Under the pieces are notes generated by a model, which saw nothing but the letters and a program-made list of their open reading frames with translations, made no database searches and was not told the origin of the DNA. The position numbers and the translations under genes are program-made. Of a stretch of 23,837 nucleotides of DNA, positions 200-23,762 are shown piece after piece (positions within the stretch are counted from its first letter, which is position 1; each line of letters opens with the position of its first letter). Source of the stretch: a virus; the IMG/VR virus record IMGVR_UViG_3300044640_001328, positions 1-23,837 of that record, one strand, 5' to 3'.

Positions 200-838
200 T
201 TAACCAACGTTTAAATTAAACTTAACCGCTTCGCCACTCAACAACTCCCTAGTGCCCTCTATGTTGTTCTCATAGATGTGAACATTACCCAAGAACAATG
301 TTATAGACTTCAACTGCAGCTCAATCTGTTTACTTATCAAGTACAGGTGATAAATGTCAGACGGTAGTCCAAGGGATGCATCAGAACTACGCTGATAAGC
401 ACTCACAATTAGTTTGCCTTTATCAATTTGAAACTGTATCAAACTTAAGCACGGCTGTTGGTTACTCTCGGTGTTGTTAGAACCAAGAAACAAAACGTAG
501 TTCTTTGACGTTCGCTTTTCTATATTGATTTTCTCAATAAGCTTTGGCAACTGTTCAAAATATGTAGGATAGCTATTTACTAAAATAGGTCCACAATAGT
601 CCCACCAACTTACTCCGATTTCACGGTAAGCCTCTGTCATTCGCTCGCCTCGCATAAACAAAACCAACTCATCTTTAAGCTTCTTTTTTGCAACTGAATG
701 CCCCTCAAATAGCTCCAATAAATCAATTGGCTTTAACTCTAATGCTTGATTAACTAGATAAGTAATTGATCCTTTTTTATTCTCTTGACACCTTCCTTTT
801 GTCAAGATTTTGTCTAAAATTTCGTGATACTTATTCAT
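200..838 (-). CDS. Thymidylate-synthase-family protein, candidate dCMP (hydroxy)methylase
   Basis: This 212-residue protein is a divergent ThyA-fold enzyme. Visible landmarks are PC at 129-130 followed by an IQF...GKL pattern (the catalytic-Cys segment, Cys130), YQRSSD at 148-153 (phosphate-binding Arg150), the LGLPSD segment ending in Asp161, and HIYEN at 187-191 (His187, Tyr189). The segment DELVLFMRGE around 56-65 and the WWDYCG that follows match the ThyA helix and Trp region. Where thymidylate synthase has LPFN, with the Asn that selects dUMP (Asn177 in E. coli), this protein has LPSD. That Asn-to-Asp change is the known signature of dCMP hydroxymethylases such as T4 gp42. The His after the catalytic Cys is Leu here, and the protein is shorter than ThyA (264) and T4 gp42 (246), lacking parts of the N- and C-terminal regions. 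Its ATG overlaps the methyltransferase stop by 8 nt, implying translational coupling. The family is fairly sure; the substrate is inferred. Confidence 0.72.
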   Translation of the reverse strand: MNKYHEILDKILTKGRCQENKKGSITYLVNQALELKPIDLLELFEGHSVAKKKLKDELVLFMRGERMTEAYREIGVSWWDYCGPILVNSYPTYFEQLPKLIEKINIEKRTSKNYVLFLGSNNTESNQQPCLSLIQFQIDKGKLIVSAYQRSSDASLGLPSDIYHLYLISKQIELQLKSITLFLGNVHIYENNIEGTRELLSGEAVKFNLNVG

Positions 839-1649
839 ACTTGTAAAGCATTATATCCGTATAACTTGAGTTATAATTCATTGTTGCGTTCATTGTGGCA
901 GTTGTAGAGCCAATAAACGGGTTGCTCATAGGCGTTTTCGTTTCAATCCACTCACACAACTCAATGATTGAAGACTTGTTTGAGGTAAAGTAAAAATACT
1001 TAGTGCCGTCCAGAACCTGCAAAACGTCCAAATAATCCTTTAACTTCCAAAAACTTTTGTATGTTCCGGCTTCAGTGGACAAATAAGGCGGATCAACCAT
1101 AAAAACCACATTTTCCAAATGTTTATATTCCGCAAACAATTCTTTATAACATTTGGAAACAACGGTCAGGCCATGCAAATAACCTGTAGCATCATAATCG
1201 GACTGCCGCACACAATTGTAAAGCGTTTCTTTCGCTAAAGCTTCAAATGATTGCACATACTTCATTGAAAACAAAATCGAACTACTCAAGGTTATGTAAT
1301 CAACATAACCCGCCATGTCGTCCTTAAGAACCCGTTTTAAAAATTCTACACCTATGCGTTTATCTTTCGGGAAATCGCCCAAAATCGCTCTAATATCCCC
1401 AATTAAGCGATTGGTCTTGTCGATGTTATCAAGTCGCTCGCGATAATTGTCAAAATCATTGTAAATTACTGTGGCATCTGGATAAATAGCCTTAACCGTG
1501 TGGCTTAATAAACCGCTTCCACCAAATAAGTCAACATAAGTTGCCGTTTGCGAATAATTAATTAAAGCAGGCTTAAACTGCTTTAAAAACTTTCTTTTCT
1601 GACCCATAAACGGCAAAGGCGCCGTTGTAAAAACTTTCTTTTTTTCCAT
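831..1649 (-). CDS. DNA adenine-N6 methyltransferase (Dam/D12 class)
   Basis: This 272-residue protein has the alpha-class adenine-N6 methyltransferase layout: PFMGQKRKF at 13-21 (motif X), DLFGGSGLLS at 40-49 (S-adenosylmethionine-binding motif I), NDFD at 64-67 (acidic motif II) and the catalytic DPPY at 186-189. FTSNKS near 221-226 fits the following conserved strand. It would transfer a methyl group to adenine in a short DNA target; the target sequence cannot be read from the protein. Its stop overlaps the start of the thymidylate-synthase-like gene, so the two are probably made together. It is preceded by a 188-bp leader with strong RNA structure and no good minus-strand promoter of its own. 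It lies at the distal end of the late genes, where Mu carries its DNA-modification gene mom. Protection from host restriction is the natural role, but this is inferred. Confidence 0.85.
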   Translation of the reverse strand: MEKKKVFTTAPLPFMGQKRKFLKQFKPALINYSQTATYVDLFGGSGLLSHTVKAIYPDATVIYNDFDNYRERLDNIDKTNRLIGDIRAILGDFPKDKRIGVEFLKRVLKDDMAGYVDYITLSSSILFSMKYVQSFEALAKETLYNCVRQSDYDATGYLHGLTVVSKCYKELFAEYKHLENVVFMVDPPYLSTEAGTYKSFWKLKDYLDVLQVLDGTKYFYFTSNKSSIIELCEWIETKTPMSNPFIGSTTATMNATMNYNSSYTDIMLYKYE

Positions 1650-1656
1650 TCGATTT

Positions 1657-1686
1657 TTGATTGATGATTAATGATTTGTATATTTG
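1657..1686 (+). promoter_or_regulatory. Flavobacterial-type promoter on the plus strand
   Basis: TTG at 1657-1659, a 19-nt spacer and TATATTTG at 1679-1686 match the TTG-N(17-23)-TAnnTTTG consensus exactly. It points right, against the late operon, from just upstream of the methyltransferase start codon. No ORF follows; a hairpin and T7 terminator lie about 110-120 nt downstream. Confidence 0.6.
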
Positions 1687-1692
1687 TGCCTC

Positions 1693-1813
1693 TCAGGATA
1701 ATTAATAAAAACAGCAAAGCCACAGCACTAGAAGACTTTTGTCCTCCAACGCTGTGGCTTGTGCTATAATTAAATTACCGTGAGAAGTTTTTAATTGTTG
1801 GAGGACTTTTTTT
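1693..1813 (+). ncRNA. Putative ~120-nt small RNA antisense to the methyltransferase leader
   Basis: The region is bounded by a consensus plus-strand promoter (1657-1686) and a plus-strand terminator: the 10-nt arms at 1741-1750 and 1797-1806 are perfectly complementary and the second is followed by seven T. The transcript start at about 1693 is estimated from promoter spacing. It contains no convincing ORF. It would be fully complementary to the leader of the minus-strand methyltransferase transcript, including the hairpin at 1717-1760, so regulation of that leader is the simplest role. This is inferred from sequence signals only. Confidence 0.45.
1717..1760 (-). promoter_or_regulatory. 20-bp RNA hairpin in the methyltransferase leader, probable attenuator
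   Basis: In minus-strand RNA, positions 1760-1741 pair along their whole length with 1736-1717 around an AAAA loop: 16 Watson-Crick pairs and 4 G-U pairs. Read on the plus strand the same four positions become A-C mismatches, so the structure looks maintained for minus-strand RNA. A U-rich stretch (UUUGCUGUUUUU) follows, as in an intrinsic terminator. The segment 1806-1797, upstream in the same RNA, is a perfect 10-nt complement of 1750-1741 and could compete for it as an antiterminator. A simple intergenic terminator or an RNase III site are alternatives. Confidence 0.55.
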
Positions 1814-1837: not shown

Positions 1838-2197
1838 TTACTTGTTTTTCCGCCTAATAACTTCAAGTATAATTATAGCAGTCAAAACCCCTACTGCAAA
1901 CCAAAGTTCGTTAACGGCGATACCAACCGCACCCGCCACCGTTGTAGCGTAAATGTCCTGCCAACTTCTTTTATTACCGCCCAGCTCTTTATGTGCTCCA
2001 AAGAATTTTCTTTGAATCCACTCAACCACAAAGCCTAAACAAAAGGATGCAAGGGTTAGAATAAACCACCGCCAAAAGTTACCTACATTCCCAAAGTCAA
2101 ACCACTCTGGGTTTTTATCAGAGTACATAATTACAGGCTGCATCAAAATGATAATCAACGCGTGTAGGTGCCACTTGGCTTTCAAAATTGTTTTCAT
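1838..2197 (-). CDS. Small multi-pass membrane protein, putative holin
   Basis: This 119-residue protein has hydrophobic segments at about 12-27, 43-62 and 82-114; the last is long enough for one or two passes. It ends in a basic tail (RRKNK). Size, number of spans and location after the tail-fibre genes fit a phage holin, which would open the inner membrane to release the endolysin encoded at 15566-16012. There is no diagnostic holin motif that I can recognise, so holin is a contextual call; another phage membrane protein is possible. It follows a terminator and a possible 36-codon ORF and precedes the structured methyltransferase leader. Confidence 0.5.
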   Translation of the reverse strand: MKTILKAKWHLHALIIILMQPVIMYSDKNPEWFDFGNVGNFWRWFILTLASFCLGFVVEWIQRKFFGAHKELGGNKRSWQDIYATTVAGAVGIAVNELWFAVGVLTAIIILEVIRRKNK

Positions 2198-17246: not shown

Positions 17247-18296
17247 TTCGAGTTTTTTAAATCTTTCAGGTTCTTTGGACATCATTTCCATTAATGCCTC
17301 AGGGTCGTTGTTTTGAAAATCTTCTAAAGTCCATTTTTCACGTCCTGTAGCCGATGCTCCAGTTTCTTCTATTTCCGCAGAAATTTTAGTAACTCCTTGC
17401 ATAGCGTTAAGAATTGTCTTTGTACCTTCAAAATCAGCATTAGCCAATTTCAAGTAGTTGTCTTTTAGATCGGCTGTAATTTTTTTGTCTAAAATTGCCT
17501 GATCTACCAATGCGGTTGCCTGTGCTTCTTGATTTGCTTTTACACTTGCCTCCAAAGTGTCCGTTTTGGACGCTTTAGCTTCAAGAGCCGTTAAAGCCGC
17601 ATCGATTTCCGCATCGGTTGCATCTGCCGAAAGTTTTAATCTACTAATCAGTTGTTTTCTTTCCATTTTTTTATGGGTTTCGTTATTAATTACGGGAATT
17701 ACTGGAGCGGCAACGGCCTCAAGTAGTTTAATACTCTCGGCTGTTACCTCTTCGGTTTGCTCTAAAATCGTGTCCAACAGTCCTTGAACTTTAGCTTCAT
17801 TGGCAGTCATCCAATAGTCGCCTTGTGCAAAAAACTCCTCGATTTGTTCTACTGTTTTATTCATTTTAGTTGAATAAGCAGTTTTGTAATCTTCGGTTGT
17901 GTTTTCTAGCAACTTCAAATCCGCCTTAATAGTGACGACATCGCCATAAGTTCCCAACTTTGGACGATGGATCATTATTTGAGAGTTTGGAAAAGCGACA
18001 CTTGGAAACTGTGTCATAAAATAGGTTGCAGCAGAAGCGGCAACCGAGCCAATTTTAATAGTAACCTTTGGAAGTCGTTTCAAATCGTTACACATTTCTG
18101 TGGCTTCAAAACAATTTCCGCCCGCACTATTTATATACACTTCTACATCGACAACACCCGTTTTCAAATACTCATCCACAATTGTTTTAATTGTAGAAGA
18201 TGAACTTTGGGAATATTCACTAATACGGTCAACAATTCTGATGGTTCCAGTTGTTCCACTTGCAGACGCTTCTATAAATGTTCTAGGTTTCGGCAT
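17229..18296 (-). CDS. ClpP-like prohead protease fused to scaffold
   Basis: Residues 15-180 form a ClpP-type serine protease: VYINSAGGNCFEA around 53-65, GSVAASAATYF with nucleophile Ser88, MIHRP with His110, and GLLDTI with Asp175. Residues 190-355 are helical and charged, with DAEIDAALTALEAKASKTD, typical of a scaffolding domain, and end in ERFKKLEAAYFG. The gene would mature the prohead, combining roles of Mu gpI and gpZ. An ATG at 17666-17664 (Met211), just after an A-rich stretch, could start a separate 145-residue scaffold protein. It is the first gene of the leftward operon. Confidence 0.8.
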   Translation of the reverse strand: MPKPRTFIEASASGTTGTIRIVDRISEYSQSSSSTIKTIVDEYLKTGVVDVEVYINSAGGNCFEATEMCNDLKRLPKVTIKIGSVAASAATYFMTQFPSVAFPNSQIMIHRPKLGTYGDVVTIKADLKLLENTTEDYKTAYSTKMNKTVEQIEEFFAQGDYWMTANEAKVQGLLDTILEQTEEVTAESIKLLEAVAAPVIPVINNETHKKMERKQLISRLKLSADATDAEIDAALTALEAKASKTDTLEASVKANQEAQATALVDQAILDKKITADLKDNYLKLANADFEGTKTILNAMQGVTKISAEIEETGASATGREKWTLEDFQNNDPEALMEMMSKEPERFKKLEAAYFG

Positions 18297-18479
18297 TAAA
18301 TTTTAGTTTTTTATCCTTTTTGAGATGACAAAGTTTAGGTTTTAACTCATCGTAAAAAAAAGGATGTTCTTAATCAGTAATGCACAACTACTGAATTAGT
18401 TAAATACAGATACCGAACTATAAAGCCAATTGAATTTTTACAGCTGATTACAACAACTTTGTACCATAGAAATAACAGT
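18297..18479. promoter_or_regulatory. Divergent late promoter region with central dyad
   Basis: No gene lies here. The plus strand has TTG at 18430-18432, a 21-nt spacer and CAACTTTG at 18454-18461, one base from the TAnnTTTG consensus, ending 18 nt before the small terminase ATG. The minus strand has AAACTTTG at 18336-18329, with no clear -33 box, about 33 nt before the protease ATG. The two boxes form an 8-bp inverted repeat (ACAAAGTT at 18328-18335, AACTTTGT at 18455-18462). Between them lies a dyad TCAGTA-N9-TACTGA at 18374-18394. Weak -33 boxes and a central dyad suggest activator control, as with Mu C, but this is inferred. Confidence 0.5.
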
Positions 18480-22437: not shown

Positions 22438-22589
22438 AAGCAATTTTTAAACAAATTGAAGCCTCCTACCATTCGCAAGATTGCGGGTGCGCTACCTGTA
22501 CAGGTCAAGAACCTTTTATTGAAGCTTTAGACTTTTCTGTTTATGAAAATTTGATTGATACCATCGCAAAACAATTGCAAGAAGGAAAA
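22419..22589 (+). other. A10 run and open -1 frame joining portal to the gpF-like gene
   Basis: Ten A (22419-22428) lie in the portal codons before its stop at 22435-22437. Read one base back, the frame is open with no stop from there into the gpF gene and has no ATG before 22590. The bridging peptide looks like protein (AIFKQIEASYHSQDCGCATC, then GQEPFIEALDF). Either ribosomes slip at the A run and make a longer portal or a portal-gpF fusion, or one A has been lost (naturally or by sequencing) from an A11 run, or the gpF gene uses a non-ATG start such as TTG 22551. Confidence 0.5.
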
Positions 22590-23762
22590 ATGAAACCTGA
22601 AGACTTGAATATTGAGTTGATAAAGCAAACTTATAAAGATTTGTCTAGCGGTGCAAAAGAGGGTTTTGGTAAATCGTGGGAAACGCAATACACCAAAAAA
22701 GGGGAAGATACCGTTGTAACTGAACTCAAAAAAAACCTTTACACTTTTGCAGGTGCCAAGTCGTATGCAATGTTAGAAACGGTAAACAAAATGTTGTACT
22801 CTCAAGACGGCAAAATGCGGCCATTTAACGAATATAGTCAACTAGTGCGTAAAGTAAACGCACAATACAACAAACATTGGTTACAAGCCGAATATCAAAC
22901 CGCTAGAGCTGCGGCACAGATGGCAAATAAGTGGCAAAAAATACAAGCCGAAAAAGAATTGTTTCCAAACTTGCGTTACAGAACCACTGGAGACGGAAAG
23001 GTGAGAGATGAACACGTTATGCTTAATGGAATTGTGAAACCAGTTGACGACCCGTTTTGGGGCATTTATTATCCGCCAAACGGATGGCGATGCCGTTGTG
23101 ATGTAGTCCAAACTGCGGAAAAAGTTACGCAAGACAAAATAGCCGATTTAGACGTTCCGGATATGCCAGGTAATGTAGGAATAGATGAAGAAATTTTCAC
23201 CAATAACCATAAGTTTTTTAAACTCTTAAAAACCAATGATAGAGCCGTTCGGAATAGTGAATTGATGAAGTTGAATGCACCTTTGGAAAATGCTTATAGT
23301 AACAAAGGTAAAAGTGTGAAAGTAAATATTTTTTATGATAAAAAGGACTTTGCAGAAAATTTAGAAAGTGCTAAAATTATTGTAGATGAACTAAAAATGA
23401 ATGTTGAAATTAGAGGGCATATTAATTTAGACAAGTATAAAAATCCTGAATATTTTATAAATGGAAAATTAGCCGATAGAAAGGAAGTGTCAACATTAAG
23501 AGGAGTAATGTCTGCATTTGATTCTTTGAAAAAGCAAGGTGCTTCGATAATGGTATTTGACTTTAAAAATTTTAAAGAGTTTAATACAAAAGATGTTACG
23601 GCTAAAATTAAAGGTAAACTTAACTCGTATAAAAAAGAGTGGGTTAATCAAATAATCATCATTAATAATGGTAAAGCTGTTTTATTTACTAAAAAAGAAC
23701 TATTTGAAAAATTTGAAGAAGTTTATAATTCAATTGAAAAAACAAAATCCCACTATAAATAG
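22590..23762 (+). CDS. gpF-like head morphogenesis protein with C-terminal nuclease-like domain
   Basis: The chosen start is ATG 22590, preceded by AGAAGGA; the frame is open upstream, so TTG 22551 or fusion with the portal is possible. From ATG 22590 it is 390 residues. The N-terminal 210 are SPP1 gp7/Mu gpF-like: KEGFGKSW, NKHWLQAEYQTARAAAQM, NLRYRTTGDGKVRDEHVMLN and PPNGWRCRC. The C-terminal 140 residues (about 23313-23762) are unlike gpF. They contain VEIRGH, NPEYFINGKLADRKEVSTLR, ASIMVFDFKN and NQIIIINNGKAVLF, matching the BECR-type nuclease domains seen in CdiA toxins (CdiA_C/PBECR-like). This part looks richer in AT than the rest. A packaged toxin-like nuclease is inferred. The gene ends in a terminator. 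Confidence 0.75.
   Translation: MKPEDLNIELIKQTYKDLSSGAKEGFGKSWETQYTKKGEDTVVTELKKNLYTFAGAKSYAMLETVNKMLYSQDGKMRPFNEYSQLVRKVNAQYNKHWLQAEYQTARAAAQMANKWQKIQAEKELFPNLRYRTTGDGKVRDEHVMLNGIVKPVDDPFWGIYYPPNGWRCRCDVVQTAEKVTQDKIADLDVPDMPGNVGIDEEIFTNNHKFFKLLKTNDRAVRNSELMKLNAPLENAYSNKGKSVKVNIFYDKKDFAENLESAKIIVDELKMNVEIRGHINLDKYKNPEYFINGKLADRKEVSTLRGVMSAFDSLKKQGASIMVFDFKNFKEFNTKDVTAKIKGKLNSYKKEWVNQIIIINNGKAVLFTKKELFEKFEEVYNSIEKTKSHYK

Follow-up and report, generated by a model that had tools for sequence, protein, structure and literature searches.

What is the set of inverted repeats that separates the last late gene of a Mu-like virus from its DNA-modification genes, and from which strand does it act? Transposable phages occur widely among the Bacteroidota (the gut phage hankyphage p00 is one), and we know of no account of how their late DNA-modification genes are controlled. 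The repeats considered here lie in IMG/VR virus record IMGVR_UViG_3300044640_001328, of which positions 1 to 23,837 (23,837 bases, referred to here as the window) were analysed. The window carries Mu-like portal, gp36 and F-like genes and a Clp-type protease gene. Its head genes are split, diverging at 18296–18459, with protease, capsid and tail genes on the minus strand and terminase, gp36, portal and F-like genes on the plus strand, an arrangement unlike that of phage Mu; the Mu F-like protein encoded at 22551–23762 has a C-terminal CdiA_C-type domain (E 9.1e-7). An earlier note on this DNA took the repeats for a terminator/antiterminator switch in the minus-strand leader of the modification genes. 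The analysis reported here points to the opposite strand, where positions 1691–1813 almost certainly constitute a real gene for a small structured RNA, judging from conserved sequence features. The features concerned are as follows.

200–838, minus strand: thymidylate-synthase-like gene, next in the modification operon (PF00303, E 1.1e-21)
831–1649, minus strand: D12-class DNA methyltransferase gene (PF02086, E 3.5e-8; phrog_56, E 1.8e-28)
1656–1659, plus strand: TTTG, -33 box, part of a TTTG-N19-TATATTTG match at 1656–1686
1679–1686, plus strand: TATATTTG, sigma-A -7 box (TAnnTTTG)
1691–1813, plus strand: predicted small RNA of about 123 nt, its ends set by promoter position and T-tract
1691–1703, plus strand: P1, 5' strand, pairing with 1773–1785, with covariation
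1717–1726, plus strand: P2, 5' strand, pairing with 1751–1760
1731–1746, plus strand: P2b, apical hairpin, GAAGAC/GTCCTC with one A-C mismatch
1741–1750, plus strand: P3, 5' strand, GTCCTCCAAC, within the P2 loop, perfect complement of 1797–1806
1751–1760, plus strand: P2, 3' strand, pairing with 1717–1726
1769–1774, plus strand: P4, 5' strand, crossing P1, its last two pairs shared with P1
1773–1785, plus strand: P1, 3' strand, pairing with 1691–1703
1790–1795, plus strand: P4, 3' strand, pairing with 1769–1774
1797–1806, plus strand: P3, 3' strand, GTTGGAGGAC, followed directly by the T-tract
1807–1813, plus strand: TTTTTTT, terminator-like U-tract, as read from the sequence
1838–2197, minus strand: last late gene before the RNA, 119 aa, with no Pfam or PHROG match

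The sigma-A motif TAnnTTTG is placed at -12 to -5 in Flavobacterium psychrophilum (PMC9723704) and, accompanied by a TTTG near -33, at -7 in Bacteroides (PMC7366714). Promoter patterns of the TTTG-N19-TATATTTG type have 5 matches in the window, against 1.66 expected, and a spacing of 19 between the -33 and -7 boxes recurs more often than any other in the family (21 of 54 spacing matches). The +1 of the RNA was placed 5 nt past the -7 box, and its 3' end at the T-tract; the position of the box thus puts +1 where P1 begins, at about 1691. P1 pairs at 11 of its 13 positions in the source phage, and perfectly in many relatives. It is the outermost helix and closes the whole RNA, and P3, taken together with the P1/P2 topology, would make a pseudoknot.

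The 20-bp stem described previously is present. Minus-strand 1760–1741 and 1736–1717 form 20 consecutive pairs, four of them G-U, around a loop of AAAA, and the minus-strand interval 1820–1700 has a minimum free energy of -41.1 kcal/mol, versus -20.2 ± 3.2 for shuffled sequences (z -6.55; 0 of 200 as good). On its own, the hairpin segment reaches -30.5 kcal/mol on the minus strand and -21.1 on the plus strand, which has A-C in place of the four G-U pairs. It contains P2, and the upstream 10-nt segment that was supposed to break it is the 3' strand of P3. This segment (1806–1797) can be read from the sequence as perfectly complementary to 1750–1741 on the minus strand, as claimed, but it is not expected to open the hairpin: the forced minus-strand pairing gives -23.1 kcal/mol, against -50.3 for the best fold, and this check of both alternatives thus yielded no two exclusive structures of comparable stability. 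The tail attributed to the hairpin is indeed U-rich and features in the terminator-scan list, but its U-richness starts only a few bases further on (TGCTGTTTTT). Two features were absent from that account: the seven Ts directly following plus-strand 1797–1806, and the -33/-7 promoter preceding the repeats.

The element was seen upstream of related methyltransferase genes, and its relatives fall into two types. A scan with a pattern of three fixed parts gave matches in 115 viral contigs and 72 genome contigs, 69 of the 72 genome-contig titles naming Bacteroidota, nearly all Flavobacteriales. With the source, these 188 Flavobacteriia-type matches reduce to 155 distinct sequences with a core of at least 120 bases, and to 153 elements when two chance rows (L243 and L262) are removed. 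The Bacteroidales type was first seen in loci chosen by methyltransferase alone and was then collected with a pattern of its own: 105 stretches gave 79 distinct sequences, 71 after removal of one contig end and seven sequences without P1/P2, and 69 elements once the chance rows L307 and L312 had been dropped, although the neighbour counts and the strand counts (G-U/A-C, fold stability) given below still include these two rows. The total is 222 distinct related elements. Independently of any pattern, 42 of 80 loci chosen by methyltransferase had a covariance-model match (E up to 0.11) on the expected strand; the source copy scores 137.4 bits with covariance model R1, being one of the model's own sequences. 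A Bacteroidales-type element is present in the hankyphage p00 record (interval 40,552–40,690) and a Flavobacteriia-type element in the isolated phage fF4, in which a gene annotated as encoding a hypothetical protein overlaps it. A search of annotated phages with the DNA of the source element returned only two weak 28-base matches, in Listeria phages, and relatives of the 119-aa late gene were found at one locus only.

Covariation in related phages, which had been proposed as a check, bears out the view that the repeats are an RNA structure under selection: P1 and P2 covary strongly, and none of 500 shuffles reached the observed values for either type. In alignment A2, made from 18 chosen Flavobacteriia-type sequences, pairs are kept in 92.1% of cells and 41 cells are double-changed, versus 12.6 in shuffles; in alignment A3, made from 29 of the 40 Bacteroidales-type representatives (28 of the 29 distinct), pairs are kept in 84.4% of cells, and 197 cells are double-changed, versus 74.2. 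Sliding the partners by one to three columns lowers the paired cells from 92% to 38–47% (Flavobacteriia) and from 84% to 36–45% (Bacteroidales). The Bacteroidales-type alignment has two-sided changes in 14 of 14 P2 pairs and 9 of 11 P1 pairs. P3 is 100% paired in both alignments, with two-sided changes in 2 of 10 pairs (A2) and 1 of 9 (A3); it was largely fixed by the search patterns, and is thus hardly tested within each type, but it covaries outside the pattern-fixed core. It also differs between the types and yet pairs in both, as GTCCTCC/GGAGGAC in the Flavobacteriia type versus GCCCCCGG/CCGGGGGC in the Bacteroidales type, and a further version, GCCCTCAGT/ACTGAGGGC, occurs in a locus found without the pattern (L038). 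The loop of P2 is thus predicted to pair, with covariation, with the 3' tail, as in an H-type-like pseudoknot. P2b is constant by construction in the pattern-selected set, and changes together with P3 in Bacteroidales-type loci. P4 has at least 5 bp in 147 of 153 Flavobacteriia-type and 65 of 71 Bacteroidales-type sequences, and its own, foreign and shuffled test values are 14.1, 11.9 and 10.5 for the former and 14.7, 12.3 and 10.8 for the latter, which supports it moderately and less well than P1–P3, as far as sequence comparison goes. An initial own-versus-foreign strand comparison was biased, the own stems having been picked as the best; the alignment covariation tests are fair in this respect. 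A Shine-Dalgarno role for the GGAGG/CCTCC motif of P3 was considered and rejected; the sequence of P3 in the Bacteroidales-type elements differs, so the motif is taken to be structural.

The possibility that P1/P2 and P3 form the two states of a switch was likewise rejected for the plus strand. The plus-strand RNA of the source has a best nested fold of -38.0 kcal/mol, and one of -23.3 when P3 alone is forced; the forced P3-only nested fold is worse by an average of 19.4 kcal/mol in the 153 elements of the first type and 23.3 in the 69 of the second, and comes within 3 kcal/mol of the best in 1 of 153 and 0 of 69. By these calculated energies, neither strand is a simple two-state switch. With P3 alone so unfavourable, P3 would form only in company with P1/P2, displacing the small apical hairpin; the folding program scores nested folds, and the pseudoknot of P1/P2 with P3 lies outside its scoring.

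Promoter and terminator features place the gene on the plus strand. TAnnTTTG is found 22–24 nt upstream of P1, putting +1 at the RNA start, as expected of a sigma-A small RNA, in 148 of 153 Flavobacteriia-type and 69 of 69 Bacteroidales-type elements (69 of 71 with the two chance rows), whereas a minus-strand -7 box occurs within the same interval in only 2 of 148. P3 is followed by a T-tract (at least 6 T in 8) in 137 of 153 and 66 of 71, and a rule-based detector of promoter, P1, P3 and T-run recognized 39 of 80 methyltransferase loci on the expected strand and 0 of 80 on the other. This conservation of promoter and U-tract on the plus strand is the reason for proposing a separate, divergent RNA gene and for dropping the leader reading; the supposed antiterminator is the 3' half of the predicted plus-strand stem P3. 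A GATTGATGATTAATGATT repeat is present at 1655–1676, inside the promoter spacer of the source, and GATTGATGAT-like repeats, which may be an operator, lie upstream of 52 of the 153 elements.

The mismatches divide the two types. The earlier note held that G-U pairs on one strand, facing A-C on the other, pointed to selection on the minus-strand RNA, and in the Flavobacteriia type the plus strand does have an excess of A-C over G-U (60:27 in P1 and 70:31 in P2 among the 153; 11:9 and 22:7 among 43 representatives), the minus fold being more stable in 28 of 30. The argument is reversed in the Bacteroidales type, in which plus-strand G-U outnumbers A-C by 53:4 in P1 and 36:14 in P2, 21 of 27 folding more stably as plus-strand RNA. 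Part of the A-C excess in a first count (46 of 128 in P2) fell where the 3' base also belongs to P3, and this overlap may select against P2 pairing at those positions. An A-rich stretch before P2, equivalent to a U-run after the minus-strand P2 hairpin, is present in 86 of 153 and 43 of 71. The minus-strand leader RNA may therefore have a second role in the Flavobacteriia type.

The genomic place of the element is just as constant. The RNA gene takes up the space that separates the last late gene from the modification operon, antisense to the leader of the operon, with 31–33 nt to the late gene on its right. In the source, the D12 methyltransferase gene is divergent from the RNA, its start codon about 42 nt from the RNA 5' end; among elements that have a left gene, this gene is divergent in 148 of 149 and 65 of 71, with median distances from P1 to start codon of 38 nt (Flavobacteriia) and 26 nt (Bacteroidales). 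The right neighbour is on the RNA's strand in only 6 of 146 and 2 of 66. The link with DNA modification drawn in the earlier note also stands, 208 of 220 elements with a left gene having a modification-type gene within 3.5 kb on that side (ABC-ATPase and formyltransferase clusters counted, two chance rows included); the other 12 comprise two missed by the cut-offs, two chance rows, four contig ends and four real exceptions (L117, L217, L300 and L326), beside which no recognized modification gene lies. The nearest left genes of the Flavobacteriia type belong to the D12 cluster (99), in which single linkage merges D12 methyltransferases with thymidylate-synthase-like genes, or are ABC-ATPase-like (20), Mom (9), C5-methyltransferase (7) or ParB-linked N6/N4 methyltransferase (6) genes. 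Four unrelated modification enzymes thus occupy the same place: D12, C5 and ParB-linked N6/N4 methyltransferases, and Mom (PF25680, E 1.4e-62). Mom-family, ABC-ATPase-like, formyltransferase-like and ParB-methyltransferase genes were also observed in the same cassette position in the Flavobacteriia phages of loci L120, L121, L188 and L191.

In 51 of 71 Bacteroidales-type loci, the left gene encodes an 80-aa helix-turn-helix-like protein, followed in 41 by the D12 cluster. Examples of this gene are L026:2326–2568 (phrog_17790) and hankyphage p00 40709–40951 (L375:3210–3452); by analogy, its product is a candidate regulator in the place held by com before Mu mom. The short thymidylate-synthase-like gene of the source overlaps the D12 methyltransferase gene (200–1649), and both also follow the RNA in hankyphage p00; base hypermodification is a possible function of the pair. 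The methyltransferase frame of fF4 (L271:4661–5125; fF4 31160–31624) is much shorter than in relatives, only query residues 4–132 being matched, and the RNA upstream of it is intact.

In about 220 phage elements, then, the predicted promoter, P1, P2 and P3 are conserved at a fixed place, divergent from the modification operon. What we infer is its transcription as an RNA, the coexistence of P3 with P1 and P2 in a pseudoknot, and termination at P3. The explanation as a whole, a structured RNA made with sigma-A that most likely serves as an antisense brake on the modification genes, falls just short of an even chance; for the function itself, a cis-encoded antisense brake on late modification genes, the case is tentative and its chance rather below even. 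The host main sigma factor would transcribe the RNA from its own promoter at 1656–1686, and transcription would end at P3 and the U-tract. Since the space between the RNA and the modification gene is too short for a sigma-A promoter and has no -7 box, messages of the modification genes very probably come from the late side, through the RNA gene, and a late-gene message reading into the operon would carry the exact complement of the RNA in its leader. The modification genes may instead have an activator-dependent promoter, as Mu mom does. The RNA would be made in lysogeny and early infection, when pairing or transcription collision would silence the harmful DNA-modification genes; strong late transcription would then run through and override the brake. 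The RNA stops about 40 nt short of the start codon, so the brake would act on the leader, by cleavage or premature stop, rather than by direct ribosome blocking.

Such conservation of the fold exceeds what an antisense brake alone requires and argues for a structural role or one in trans. A small RNA whose fold lets it work in trans, perhaps bound to a host or phage protein or as a block to a host defence, is a close rival to the brake and a serious possibility, if one well short of even. The place by the modification cassette would then be only a shared counter-defence region or a fixed boundary of cassette exchange. The fold is kept while the sequences of P1 and P2 change completely, the RNA stays while the neighbouring enzyme is exchanged, fF4 keeps an intact RNA beside a shortened methyltransferase frame, and a consensus sigma-A promoter suggests lysogenic expression, all of which fit such a role. 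It is less easily reconciled with the modification operon being the only constant neighbour, the RNA being antisense over its full length to that operon's leader, or with the lack, by eye, of any unpaired stretch common to both types apart from the apical/P3 motif. It is unlikely, but conceivable, that this new structured-RNA class of transposable phages of Flavobacteriia and Bacteroidales combines the two, acting in trans on host defence or RNA polymerase and also gating the modification cassette; RNA-based and DNA-modification counter-defence would then be coupled.

The explanations that dispense with a divergent gene fare much worse than the antisense brake. For the minus-strand leader attenuator, with the 20-bp hairpin as terminator and the upstream 10-nt segment as its antagonist, the greater stability of the stem on the minus strand, the better minus folds and A-C excess of the Flavobacteriia type, the U-run after minus-strand P2 in 86 of 153, and the almost invariable leader position all count, and the repeats, their selection and their tie to modification genes were rightly seen. 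Its strand and architecture are wrong or unsupported, however: the alternative pairing is 27 kcal/mol worse and, as read from the sequence, would spare the lower 10 bp of the hairpin, the conserved promoter and U-tract are on the plus strand, and the Bacteroidales-type elements give the opposite strand signal, so that this reading is very improbable. Equally improbable is a two-way terminator or insulator at the border of late genes and modification operon, with no RNA function: a hairpin with a U-run is usable both ways, but a promoter at constant spacing, P1, a pseudoknot and covariation over 120 nt would all be superfluous in a terminator. Processive antitermination, of which HK022 put and the EAR element are examples, might let RNA polymerase continue into the modification genes by means of a minus-strand element. 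The element's structure, its size of about 120 nt, its place in the leader of a late operon and the more stable minus fold in Flavobacteriia would suit this; the conserved plus-strand promoter and terminator features and the plus fold favoured in the Bacteroidales type do not, and its probability is the lowest of those considered here, close to negligible.

Against Rfam release 15, the source had no match at gathering score, and only two unrelated sub-threshold matches within 1400–2100; eight Flavobacteriia-type loci had none at E<=1, the hankyphage region had none above threshold, and at the element in seven Bacteroidales-type loci the only matches, RAGATH-7 (29.2 bits, other strand) and GcvB (22.4 bits), were both far below cut-off. 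Searches of an open PMC library showed no description of this RNA. Fremin and Bhatt 2021 (PMC8040213) give 16,482 models of candidate structured RNAs from human microbiomes; these anonymous models could include the Bacteroidales-type element, and the portions of the article that were searched do not describe this RNA. On comparative sequence grounds, the predicted phage small RNA has a distinct fold and represents a strongly covarying family that is new and lacks an Rfam entry. A conserved RNA gene at the boundary between late and modification genes, beside four unrelated kinds of enzyme and in over 200 phages infecting Bacteroidota, is a concrete and easily tested candidate for their control. 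Members of the family are within experimental reach, fF4 as a phage that grows in culture and hankyphage as one that B. thetaiotaomicron can be induced to release in the laboratory. For a hankyphage lysogen, B. thetaiotaomicron jmh43, a stranded RNA-seq set has been published (PMC12135933).

Among known systems, the RNA of type III toxin-antitoxin pairs, with its repeated pseudoknot units ahead of a toxN-like gene on the same strand, was rejected as a model, the phage element being single copy and rarely having a right neighbour on the same strand (6 of 146 and 2 of 66). Plasmids pT181 and pIP501 provide examples of attenuation controlled by antisense RNA; the phage element resembles them as a short structured antisense RNA overlapping an mRNA leader, but the calculated energies support no leader switch here. 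In Mu com-mom, a late DNA-modification gene is under translational and methylation control, through the Com protein and Dam sites, and to our knowledge no antisense RNA has been found there. The likeness lies in the right end of a transposable phage, in the tight control of a late modification gene, and in the true Mom genes (PF25680) beside some of these RNAs, whereas the means that Mu uses, Com protein and Dam sites, are different. The DonS family of Bacteroides consists of cis-antisense RNAs of 78–128 nt, divergent to susC genes (PMC7366714). As far as a comparison by description only can go, the phage RNA resembles DonS in size, in its occurrence in Bacteroidota and in its divergent position beside genes to be silenced, whose leader it would overlap if messages run through as proposed; it differs in that its neighbours are DNA-modification genes rather than susC homologues, and in having a conserved, covarying fold with a pseudoknot.
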